Positions 22,028 to 47,226 of a DNA stretch of 64,000 nt are shown here, piece by piece. The stretch is from positions 1,674,001-1,738,000 of the forward strand of contig NZ_JAODVR010000001.1 in assembly GCF_025399835.1 (NCBI RefSeq), read 5' to 3'. Every line of letters starts with the position of its first letter. The stretch's first letter is position 1. The translations under genes were made by a program, and so were the position numbers. The notes beneath the pieces were generated by a model. That model ran no database searches, was not told the origin of the DNA, and saw nothing but the letters and a program-made list of their open reading frames with translations. Source of the stretch: Haloarchaeobius sp. HME9146 (lineage in GTDB: Archaea > Halobacteriota > Halobacteria > Halobacteriales > Natrialbaceae).

Positions 22028-22080
22028 GTCAGGGCCAGAACGGGGGCGTTGACTTTCGGTTCTCGCCGGTGTTCGAGGAT

Positions 22081-22203
22081 GGCGGGAGGTAGATTTGAAC
22101 TACCTCACTCCGCTCCGCTTCGTCCGTGAGTTCAATCTACCGTGACCGACTTCGCGACTCATGGACTCGTCGCTTCGCTCCTCGTCGTTGTTCGTCGCAA
22201 TAG
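22081..22203 (-). repeat. tRNA-iMet 3'-end-derived double-hairpin unit 1
   Basis: This 123-nt unit is the second of two downstream of the initiator tRNA at 22344-22418 (minus strand). It opens with a copy of the tRNA T-arm/acceptor end (22081-22100). An inverted, slightly decayed copy (GTTCAATCTACC) follows near 22131-22142, so the pair can fold into a long hairpin with CTCAC/GTGAG inside. A second, weaker hairpin (TTCGCGAC...GTCGCAATAG) abuts the next copy. It is nearly identical to unit 4 at 22913-23036. No protein is encoded: overlapping ORFs are by-products. Confidence 0.7.
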
Positions 22204-22343
22204 TAGCGGGAGGTAGATTTGAACCTCGCCCGAGAACCTGTGCTTCGCACAGAACCTCGGTCTGGTTCAAACTACCACAGTTCTATTTTCAGAATTCAGG
22301 GTTCGTTCGACTACGTCTCACTCACCAATTGAATTCTGAAAAA
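22204..22343 (-). repeat. tRNA-iMet 3'-end-derived double-hairpin unit 2
   Basis: This 140-nt unit lies directly after the initiator tRNA gene at 22344-22418 on the minus strand. A 21-nt exact copy of the tRNA 3' end occupies 22204-22224. Its partner GGTTCAAACTACC lies near 22272-22284, with an inner stem GAACCTGTGC/GCACAGAACC. Next to the tRNA is a near-perfect 16-nt inverted repeat (CTATTTTCAGAATTCA...TGAATTCTGAAAAATAG), well placed to act as a transcript-end hairpin. Confidence 0.75.
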
Positions 22344-22418
22344 TAGCGGGAGGTAGATTTGAACTACCGATCTGCGGGTTATGAGCCCGCCGGAATCTCC
22401 TGGCTATCCCATCCCGCT
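22344..22418 (-). tRNA. Initiator tRNA-Met (CAU), copy 1
   Basis: The 75-nt minus-strand gene folds as a full cloverleaf without intron: acceptor AGCGGGA/TCCCGCT with discriminator A, anticodon loop CTCATAA in a GCGGG/CCCGC stem, and T-arm GTAG-TTCAAAT-CTAC. The three G:C pairs of the anticodon stem and the A1:U72 pair mark it as the initiator. CCA is not encoded. The 10 nt immediately upstream (ATGCAGAAGT on the minus strand) are shared with copy 2, and CCCTTATCC further upstream is a possible TATA element. Confidence 0.95.
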
Positions 22419-22681: not shown

Positions 22682-22737
22682 GTGGCTCTCTTCGGTCGGT
22701 TCGGTGAAAAATCTCGGGCTGTTGGTCTGGGTCTGTG

Positions 22738-22912
22738 GCAGGAGGTAGATTTGAACCTCACTCGCTTCGCTCACGGTTTCACCGTTCGCGTCGCGGTTCT
22801 CGCTACGCTCCGAACCGCGCACCGCTCGCTGGTTCAAACGACCACAGTTCTATTTCGCCGAACTCGCGACTCGCTCGCCTACGTCTCGCTCGTCGATTGA
22901 GTTCGGCAGAAA
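22738..22912 (-). repeat. tRNA-iMet 3'-end-derived double-hairpin unit 3
   Basis: This 175-nt unit is second downstream of the initiator tRNA at 23037-23111. The T-arm copy (22743-22757) is intact but its acceptor end has decayed (GCAGGAGG). The inverted partner GGTTCAAACGACC lies near 22832-22844, with an inner stem CGCGGTTC/GAACCGCG. A 16-nt inverted repeat CTATTTCGCCGAACTC/GAGTTCGGCAGAAATAG ends at the next tRNA copy. The stretch ACCACAGTTCTATTT is shared with unit 2. Confidence 0.7.
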
Positions 22913-23036
22913 TAGCGGGAGGTAGATTTGAACTACCTCACTCCGCTCCGCTTCGTTCGTGAGTTCAATCTACCGTGACCGACTTTGCGACTCATGGACT
23001 CGTCGCTTCGCTCCTCGCCGTTGTTCGTCGCAAAAG
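22913..23036 (-). repeat. tRNA-iMet 3'-end-derived double-hairpin unit 4
   Basis: This 124-nt unit abuts the initiator tRNA at 23037-23111. It starts with an exact 21-nt copy of the tRNA 3' end (22913-22933), has the inverted copy GTTCAATCTACC near 22963, and ends in the hairpin CTTTGCGAC...GTCGCAAAAG next to the tRNA. It differs from unit 1 at only a handful of positions, so one was copied from the other or both from a common source. Confidence 0.75.
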
Positions 23037-23111
23037 TAGCGGGAGGTAGATTTGAACTACCGATCTGCGGGTTATGAGCCCGCCGGAATCTCCTGGCTAT
23101 CCCATCCCGCT
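23037..23111 (-). tRNA. Initiator tRNA-Met (CAU), copy 2
   Basis: Sequence-identical to the copy at 22344-22418: same cloverleaf, anticodon CAU, GGG:CCC anticodon stem and A1:U72 pair, no intron and no encoded CCA. The upstream minus-strand sequence TTATGCAGAAGT resembles that of copy 1, and CCCTTAACTAG about 30 nt upstream may be the TATA box. Confidence 0.95.
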
Positions 23112-46237: not shown

Positions 46238-46329
46238 CGGGCGGATTCGAACCGCGGAGACTCGCATCCGCTCGTCTCCTGGGCTCGAATCCACCGTTCG
46301 CTATTCGTCCTCACTTCGTTCGGACAGAA
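46238..46329 (-). repeat. tRNA-Gln 3'-end-derived double-hairpin unit
   Basis: This about 92-nt unit lies directly downstream of the tRNA-Gln gene (minus strand). It starts with an 18-nt copy of that tRNA's T-arm/acceptor end (46238-46255, CGGGCGGATTCGAACCGC). An inverted partner GGGCTCGAATCCACCG is at 46281-46296, with an inner GGAGA/TCTCC pairing. A hairpin CTATTCGTCC...GGACAGAATAG (46301-46332) abuts the tRNA. The layout matches the initiator-tRNA units but the sequence is Gln-specific. Confidence 0.7.
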
Positions 46330-46432
46330 TAGTCCCGGGCGGATTCGAACCGCCGTCAATGGCTCACTTCGACGCTGGAACGAACCAGACGCCTCCAAAG
46401 GCCATTATGATTGGCCACTACACCACGGGACT
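46330..46432 (-). tRNA. tRNA-Gln (UUG) with intron
   Basis: The 103-nt gene folds into a cloverleaf after removal of a 30-nt intron (46365-46394). Acceptor AGTCCCG/CGGGACT with discriminator A; anticodon stem ATGGC/GCCAT with loop CTTTGGA, anticodon TTG; T-arm GGCGG-TTCGAAT-CCGCC. The intron starts after G37, the canonical archaeal position for splicing at a bulge-helix-bulge. Intron-containing tRNA-Gln(UUG) is known from haloarchaea. CCA is not encoded. Confidence 0.9.
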
Positions 46433-46473: not shown

Positions 46474-47226
46474 TTACTTTTCGTCGGACGGGACGGGTGT
46501 GGCTACCACACCAGCCTCGACCTTGCGATGGCAGGGGCGACAGAGCGTGACGACGTTCTCCAGCTCGTGTGCATCGCTCGTGTCATCGAACTCTCGGACG
46601 CGGTCGATGTGATGCACGTCGGGGTTCTGGCCGAGGTCGTCGACATCCTTCCCACAGCACTGGCAGCTGTAGGCATCGCGTTCGAGTGCCTCTTCTCGGA
46701 CGCGCCACCAGCCGTTCCCATAGACGAGTGGGCCACCCTCCCACTGGTGATGCGATTCGCCGACGACGTTCGCGGAGAGCCAGTCTCCGTAGCATCGGGT
46801 CGAACAGAACGTCCCGTACGAGTTTCCCGTGGTTCGCGACGGTGGGGCCGGAAACGACTCGCCACAGTACTCGCAGTCGACGACGGTTGGCTCGAGGTCG
46901 TCCATCGGATTCTCTGGCAGCAACCCGCTCGCGTCCTCAACACACTCGGGGCAGTACACGCCCTCCTTCTCCGAGGGATAGTACTCGAAGCTCGAATCGC
47001 ACAGTACACAGACCGACTCCTCGGTCGCGTCGCGCCAGTTCCCGTTGTGTTCGCCCGCGTTGGGGTTGCAGTCGTCGCAGAACTCGCGGCGCGACTTCGG
47101 GTCGTAGAAGCGGTCGTCACATCCCGAGCACGTCCGGTTCGGGAGGGAGACGCCGTGGACTTTGGTGTGGTGCTGGCGCATCCCTCGTTCGGTGGCGAGG
47201 GGTTTCCCGCAGGTGGGGCACTGCAT
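46474..47226 (-). CDS. HNH endonuclease with multiple zinc-finger motifs
   Basis: This 250-residue protein has an N-terminal C2H2-type finger (CPTCGKPLATERGMRQHHTKVH), then five further CxxC-type pairs spread to residue 150, and a C-terminal HNH nuclease (CQCCGKDVDDLG, VHHIDRVREF, NVVTLCRPCHRKVE). The finger array probably directs DNA binding. The ATG at 47226 begins the first finger. It sits 42 nt from the tRNA-Gln 5' end on the same strand. Such nucleases occur in restriction-like and homing contexts; no partner genes indicate which. Confidence 0.85.
   Translation of the reverse strand: MQCPTCGKPLATERGMRQHHTKVHGVSLPNRTCSGCDDRFYDPKSRREFCDDCNPNAGEHNGNWRDATEESVCVLCDSSFEYYPSEKEGVYCPECVEDASGLLPENPMDDLEPTVVDCEYCGESFPAPPSRTTGNSYGTFCSTRCYGDWLSANVVGESHHQWEGGPLVYGNGWWRVREEALERDAYSCQCCGKDVDDLGQNPDVHHIDRVREFDDTSDAHELENVVTLCRPCHRKVEAGVVATPVPSDEK

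Follow-up and report, generated by a model that had tools for sequence, protein, structure and literature searches.

Casposons encode Cas1 and duplicate their target at the 3' end of a tRNA gene. In Humcor2 the att site is 13 bp and identical to the 3' end of a tRNA, according to an excerpt of PMC7911831, and the annotated attP of Halfgib1 is 13 nt. Many small repeats that lack a transposase and carry near-terminal palindromes are present in haloarchaea, as reported in sections of PMC3119063. Archaeal integrons are the subject of PMC9668308, in the text of which the words 'haloarchaea', 'Halobacter' and 'tRNA' are absent. Repeat units at the 3' ends of haloarchaeal tRNA genes are reported here; full-text searches of a library of open-licence papers found no published description of them.

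The window, which is the whole stretch of 64,000 nucleotides that was analysed, contains a tRNA-Gln gene with a unit directly 3' of it, ordered on the minus strand as a hairpin, H1, and then a longer hairpin, H2 (Table 1). An earlier note on this DNA had reported an 18-nt copy of the end of the Gln T-arm, an inverted partner at 46281-46296 and a hairpin against the tRNA, and all three are there. The direct repeat is exact over 18 nt (46238-46255 with 46336-46353, CGGGCGGATTCGAACCGC), its downstream copy being both the 3' arm of H2 and the right end of the unit. The inverted partner is contained in a 22-nt inverted repeat (46240-46261 with 46274-46295) that is 82% complementary, and the hairpin CTATTCGTCC / GGACAGAATAG adjoins the tRNA gene. 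H1 reads TTCTGTCC GAACGAAGTGA GGACGAA on the minus strand. The tRNA-Gln gene was not called by ARAGORN in bacterial mode; an intron-aware run names it Gln(ttg). An ORF at 46474-47226, starting MQCPTCGKPLATERGMRQHHTKVHG and HNH-like by eye, also adjoins the tRNA-Gln gene, and similar ORFs adjoin tRNA-Gln in two other loci (L066 and L074).

Table 1. Positions of the tRNA genes and of the units and their parts in the window.
Feature	Position	Strand	Basis
Initiator tRNA-Met gene 1	23037..23111	-	ARAGORN and Rfam RF00005
Type A unit of initiator tRNA-Met gene 1, with 25-nt tail copy	22913..23036	-	
Type B unit of initiator tRNA-Met gene 1, 177 nt	22736..22912	-	
Initiator tRNA-Met gene 2	22344..22418	-	ARAGORN and Rfam RF00005
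Type B unit of initiator tRNA-Met gene 2, 140 nt	22204..22343	-	
Type A unit of initiator tRNA-Met gene 2, 124 nt	22080..22203	-	
tRNA-Gln(ttg) gene with intron; the unit inserts at its 3' end	46330..46432	-	Rfam RF00005, 51.6 bits; name from intron-aware ARAGORN
Whole unit (tRNA-end cassette), 92 nt	46238..46329	-	Repeats, RNA fold, homologous units
Hairpin H1 (TTCTGTCCGAACGAAGTGAGGACGAA)	46304..46329	-	Fold; first base is the next after the tRNA discriminator
Hairpin H2: inverted T-arm, inner stem GGAGAC/GTCTCC, direct T-arm	46240..46295	-	Inverted repeat I1; fold
5' arm of H2, imperfect inverted T-arm (GGTGGATTCGAGCC)	46282..46295	-	Repeats and fold; not specially Gln-like
tRNA-Gln 3' end repeated exactly over 18 nt (GCGGTTCGAATCCGCCCG)	46238..46255	-	Direct repeat D1, 100%

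The window also has two genes for initiator tRNA-Met, each followed by two units in tandem. The type A units of the two genes align with a score of 0.93 of the maximum, and the order of the units is swapped, being A-B at gene 1 and B-A at gene 2. As the earlier note had it, all three tRNA genes in the window have units, which is no surprise given that units follow roughly two in three tRNA genes of the genome.

The genome of the window (G000) is 4.19 Mb and has 51 tRNA genes by RF00005, and the flanks of all 51 were examined. Copies of the tRNA tail were scored as ungapped matches to its last 26 nt (+1/-2) with a score of at least 11 within 500 nt, a cut-off picked after the scores were seen. 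A copy of the cognate tail is found downstream of 32 of the 51 genes and upstream of 3; one of these upstream copies is the neighbouring initiator tRNA-Met array and two are in a tRNA cluster on contig C2. Two further units fall outside this criterion, one at a tRNA-Trp gene missed by RF00005 and one, displaced 20 kb by an integrated element, at the elongator tRNA-Met gene. This gives 34 of 52, a count that leaves out the degraded units visible by eye at further tRNA genes. The distance from tRNA to tail copy is 62-268 nt, with the longest values spanning tandem units, and unit length is about 60-226 nt. Four tRNA genes (Glu, Val, Ala and Asn) at C2:577166-578673 are all without units.

Exact duplication of tRNA 3' ends is established, and the direct copies follow the tRNA beside which they lie, being strictly the best match to the cognate tRNA in 30 of 32 units in G000 and in 25 of 28 in a genome of the same genus (G001). 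None of the 32 copies in G000 starts less than 13 nt from the end of the tRNA, and 20 reach the discriminator. Their 5' limits are bimodal, with 15 at 13-16 nt, 17 at 21-25 nt and none at 17-20 nt; in G001 they lie at 11-15 nt in 6 of 28 copies and at 21-28 nt in the other 22. The inverted arm has the cognate tRNA as its best or equal-best match in just 8 of 32 units (G000) and 9 of 28 (G001), against permuted means of 1.6 and 1.0, and the inverted arm of the Gln unit in the window is matched better by 8 of the 46 distinct tRNA tails than by Gln's own. The inverted arm is mostly a generic complement of the T-loop. The proposal that each unit is built from its own tRNA is borne out for the direct copy and fails for most of the inverted arms.

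A second class comprises five of the 32 units (Gly(ccc), Ala(ggc), Ala(cgc), Arg(ccg) and Arg(gcg)), in which the shared motif is present solely on the opposite strand; in those that were read by eye, the acceptor tail and not the T-arm takes part in the pairing. Several units, for example those at G000 C1:883869 and C1:3016304, have extra letters in the T-loop of the copy (e.g. GGTTCACAATCC), and such copies are faithful only in their last 14-16 nt.

The remainder of the unit is often shared between different tRNA genes. Modules were compared by blastn (E up to 1e-3) after dropping the last 26 nt of each unit and masking most of the T-loop letters. Modules common to units at tRNAs with different tails were found in 40 of the 60 units of G000 and G001, in 77 pairs, while shuffled queries in the same test gave no matches in five rounds. 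For example, the H1 of the Gln unit in the window is shared over 37 nt, at 94.6%, with the unit of a tRNA-Leu(tag) gene elsewhere in the genome. The units so make up one common modular repeat family, in which it is mainly the tRNA-side end that is fitted to each tRNA. Because parts unrelated to the tRNA are common to different tRNAs, one modular family is spreading, which contradicts what the earlier note had argued. All 9 matches of a unit motif in G000 are at tRNA genes. One of them, 12 kb past a tRNA-Lys gene, was considered as the mark of a large element and rejected, as it follows an apparent intron-containing tRNA-Trp gene missed by RF00005.

The family extends well beyond this genome. 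Exact matches to GGATTYGAACCAGSGAGC occur in 79 stretches of genome_contigs, 39 of them haloarchaeal by a count of those listed, from genera including Haloferax, Halorubrum, Halogeometricum, Halobellus, Halorientalis, Halovivax, Halomarina and Halorubellus. When viral sequences are included there are 89 motif matches, of which 35 lie within 400 nt downstream of a tRNA gene on the same strand. This position is held by 32 of the 39 haloarchaeal matches, and by L105 also by Rfam. Of the remaining haloarchaeal matches, L174 is 468 nt and L131 4.1 kb from a tRNA gene, no tRNA was found for L119 and L176, and in L116 and L137 the motif and the adjoining tRNA are on opposite strands, as would be seen after insertion of the unit in reverse. 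The other 50 matches (41 non-haloarchaeal and 9 viral) include 3 near a tRNA gene, all three bacterial.

Another family of the order is represented by the genome G194, in which copies are present at 9 of the 30 best-scoring tRNA genes, or 8 of 30 once a whole-gene duplicate is removed, and units resembling the second class were seen there by eye. The architecture is therefore a general one, present at 32 of 51 genes in G000 and 8 of 30 in G194. A control genome from the same phylum but outside the order (G260) has downstream copies at 6 of 30 tRNA genes. All six are 26/26-nt matches, consistent with duplicated neighbouring tRNA genes, and no partial copies reaching the cut-off were found at the 30 genes. 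An exact 18-nt motif was present in 2 of 216 genomes sampled from the phylum and in none of the 179 outside the order, an insensitive search that found only 2 of the 37 inside it; since this motif is so rare, it is a poor census tool.

Presence and absence of the unit could be compared at the tRNA-Gln gene, which was found in 122 of 125 genomes of the same family. Of 97 tRNA-Gln loci read, 40 are filled by the criterion of a copy scoring 13 or more within 250 nt, and the other 57 are empty or decayed. In one genus a filled locus (L258, G036) and an empty one (L256, G034) have a flank identity of 0.74 when the 102-nt unit is skipped and 0.49 otherwise. The corresponding values are 0.86 and 0.50 for L075 and L246, 0.84 and 0.51 for L075 and L058, and 0.76 and 0.50 for L092 and L259. 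At sequence level, these four comparisons of empty and filled loci with alignable flanks demonstrate the precise insertion of about 102 bp. The exact 22-nt Gln tail is present in 102 of the 125 genomes, with more than one copy on one contig in 20; the 21 second copies in these 20 genomes are all 98-103 bp from the preceding one. A longer, autonomous version at tRNA-Gln was sought and rejected, all 21 second exact-tail copies lying at this one spacing. Among 43 orthologous tRNA pairs of G000 and G001, both members are filled in 20, only that of G000 in 10, only that of G001 in 3 and neither in 10, with 8 tRNAs having no ortholog in the comparison. The units are thus both present and absent at the same tRNA genes, within one genus as well as across the family.

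The bodies of the units in L258 and L261, excluding the tail copy, are identical, although the loci belong to different genera (g11 and g13). Flank identity is 0.48 and 0.51, against 0.50 for shuffled flanks, and the introns of the two tRNA genes are 0.86 identical, the unit being more alike than the intron of its own gene. The order of tandem units also varies at tRNA-Lys(ttt), where pairwise comparison gives X-Y in G000 and Y-X-Y-X' in G001, with X' decayed. Judged by eye, several Gln arrays have degraded distal units, while the one nearest the tRNA is as a rule intact. From these comparisons, movement of the units is well supported. None of the 9 Gln genes with a CAG/CTG variant of the T-stem is filled, compared with 40 of the 88 others (Fisher p 0.0096, with genera not independent), and no filled locus has a T-stem changed in this way. 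The sites downstream of tRNA-Gln at L074, L086 and L292 are without a unit and have another sequence in common, with GAGTTTTGAATCC no more than about 21 nt past the tRNA. Integrase elements were considered for the unit-less sites with TTTTGAATCC, and the ORF lists of three loci, including L074, suggested no integrase by eye.

A possible source of this mobility is present in the genome itself. The elongator tRNA-Met gene contains a 20 kb SNJ2-like element (C1:861321-881373; L235 and L236) with a 14-nt core common to both borders and two integrase-family genes, one of which, compared over its full length, is 67.7% identical to the SNJ2 integrase. The genome has six PF00589 matches, none of them typed as the IntI of integrons. 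A complete unit with the Met tail directly follows the right core of the element, most simply because the element inserted between the tRNA and a pre-existing unit. With the tRNA on one side of the element and a complete unit on the other, element and unit insert at one and the same point. Tyrosine integrases are proposed as mobilisers of the units mainly because the short class of unit copies matches the extent of the 13-14-nt core. SNJ2 itself carries the tail-like CCGTCAGGGCCCA. Arms like those of H1 and H2 are absent from the SNJ2 attP, and neither H1 nor H2 is present at the ends of the intact elongator-Met element. With the Gln unit as query, a search for carriers found no phage records and, among plasmids, no full unit and one 36-nt partial match; the Gln locus gave one 42-nt plasmid match. 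The unit pattern occurs in 9 stretches of viral_contigs, none of them near a tRNA.

On the sequence evidence, it is reasonably probable that the units are non-autonomous, non-coding mobile mini-elements that insert at the 3' ends of tRNA genes in haloarchaea, with movement by an integrase as the presumed mechanism. The left border is the tRNA's own 3' end and the right border its copy, leaving the tRNA whole after insertion. Recombination would be site-specific, within the 13-14-nt core at the tRNA end, with tyrosine integrases, for instance of the SNJ2 type, probably acting on the units in trans; these candidate enzymes use the same core. H1 and H2 would be recognition structures and may act as a folded single strand. 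Counting against this explanation are the SNJ2 attP and the ends of the elongator-Met element, which have no H1 or H2, and the carrier searches, which found no full unit in phages or plasmids. In addition, at about 60-226 nt the units are short for excision as double-stranded DNA, and the shuffling of the arrays, clear as the reordering itself is, could have come from homologous recombination between repeats.

It is also possible, though doubtful, that the tRNA genes are the receptor platforms of an integron-like system of gene-less cassettes in haloarchaea. Folded single strands (H1-H2) would then recombine into the tRNA 3' end, and new cassettes would enter beside the tRNA while older ones decay away from it, with cassettes being shuffled among the tRNA genes and also among species.

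The hairpins themselves are conserved. Covariation was assessed in 28 Gln units, picked from the filled loci for clear ends and a single H2 type, with other filled loci left out. Over 24 named pairs, 97.0% of cells are paired, compared with 87.2% in shuffles and 19-45% when the pairings are slid along the alignment. Changes on both sides are found in 11 pairs, 7 of the 10 in H1 and 4 of the 14 in H2, the latter all in the inner stem. Since the T-arm copy hardly varies, no compensation could be seen in the outer arms of H2. A separate script run on 32 units (30 distinct) agrees. Compensatory changes are thus demonstrated in the alignment, and the covariation that the earlier note had set as its test is seen in H1 and in the inner stem of H2.

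There are also signs that one strand matters. The Gln unit folds on the tRNA-sense strand at -47.6 kcal/mol (z -5.8, with none of 200 shuffles as good) and on the other strand at -37.2 kcal/mol (z -3.0), while the adjoining 92 nt used as a control have a z of 0.0. A single A unit folded alone is less striking than the Gln unit, with a z of -1.8. With mismatches scored without favour, G.T against A.C in H2 is 14/3 in G000, 12/5 in G001 and 26/3 in the Gln set. For the two genomes together this is 26 against 8 (p = 0.003, with orthologous units not independent). In H1 there is no excess (2/3, 4/1 and 3/8, in total 9 against 12). Of 32 units, 26 have the sense motif of conserved tandem GA letters and 7 the antisense motif, and a short T-rich run starts many units. 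Folding of the tRNA-sense strand, as RNA or as single-stranded DNA, is hinted at by the G.T excess in H2 and the tandem GA letters, and these signs are suggestive only. The G.T excess counts against a plain double-strand reaction, since such a reaction does not predict it.

The same signs would fit a conserved RNA element, with the unit as a transcribed pre-tRNA trailer in which H1 and H2 aid termination or processing of the tRNA 3' end. This has in its favour the stronger sense fold, the compensatory changes, the sense bias of the tandem GA mismatches, the G.T excess in H2 and the T-rich start. It is nonetheless unlikely. The unit must be dispensable because 57 of the 97 tRNA-Gln loci are without one by the criterion used and orthologous tRNAs within one genus gain or lose it. 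In addition, five units have the motif on the other strand only and distal tandem copies decay.

Transposition of the PATE or SMR kind, by a single-strand transposase of the IS200/IS605 type, would be in keeping with the two hairpins and with the abundance of small transposase-free palindromic repeats in haloarchaea. PATEs and SMRs make no target duplication, according to the sections of PMC3119063 available. The PATE or IS605-type pattern is a 4-5-nt target without duplication, whereas the units are bounded by copies reaching 13-25 nt into the tRNA. All 9 motif matches in the genome being at tRNA genes also argues against this route, which is quite unlikely.

The units could instead be scars of larger integrated elements, with attL and attR joined by internal deletion. 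Elements standardly integrate at the 3' ends of tRNA genes, the cores here being 13-14 nt, and integration leaves tRNA fragments, as an extract of PMC9897764 describes. Already weakened, this reading is very improbable: the ends of the intact SNJ2-like element in the genome are unlike H1 and H2, and neither the conservation of the units across tRNAs and genera nor the constant 98-103 bp between exact Gln copies is expected of random deletions. Least probable is replication template switching, a form of the earlier note's idea that tRNA 3' ends are copied time after time and given inverted partners, which would suit the inverted and direct copies side by side and the cognate inverted matches above permutation (8/32 against 1.6 and 9/28 against 1.0) but not the non-tRNA modules common to different tRNAs, the unit body identical between genera or the usually generic inverted arm, evidence that favours an inserted modular mobile unit over repeated copying de novo.

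If the units are mobile mini-elements, then some two thirds of this genome's tRNA genes bear members of a large and apparently unnoticed mobile class, sited at essential genes. The motif matches beside tRNA genes in the many haloarchaeal genera named above suggest that the class is indeed large. Such a class would illustrate how elements with no coding room can specialise on tRNA ends, and the tandem units would be natural arrays that record insertion history. The action of SNJ2-type integrases in trans would become testable in genetically tractable haloarchaea. There is also a warning for genome annotation, in that repeats of tRNA ends in haloarchaea do not by themselves signal large islands.

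Compared with the known systems, the units are too small to hold the Cas1 of a casposon. They resemble the PATEs, SMRs and MITEs of Haloquadratum, as far as the sections of PMC3119063 describe them, in being short, transposase-free, palindromic, haloarchaeal and variable between relatives. They differ from these in targeting the tRNA 3' end and having its copy at the right border, and no terminal inverted repeat was seen in them by eye. With integron cassettes, as the available portion of PMC9668308 presents those of archaea, they share the tandem arrangement at one receptor site, the changes of order, hairpins that may serve as recombination sites and the hint of strand-specific folding. Unlike cassettes, the units have no ORF, judging by their length, and the receptor is a tRNA gene. 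The tRNA fragments left by integrated elements are likewise partial 3' ends beside a whole tRNA, in the extract of PMC9897764, but the fragment of a unit lies about 100 nt away within a conserved unit of two hairpins and not at the far end of a large element. The SNJ2-type haloviruses and proviruses (Pleolipoviridae) differ in size and content, the units of about 60-226 nt having no gene and no room for an integrase or cargo, and carrying two hairpins and an inverted T-arm unlike the SNJ2 attP. Yet the insertion point at the tRNA 3' end is the same, the 13-14-nt att core matches the extent of the short class of copies (13-16 nt, 15 of 32), and the units, to judge from the four pairs of empty and filled loci, integrate precisely, like these elements, and leave the target otherwise intact.
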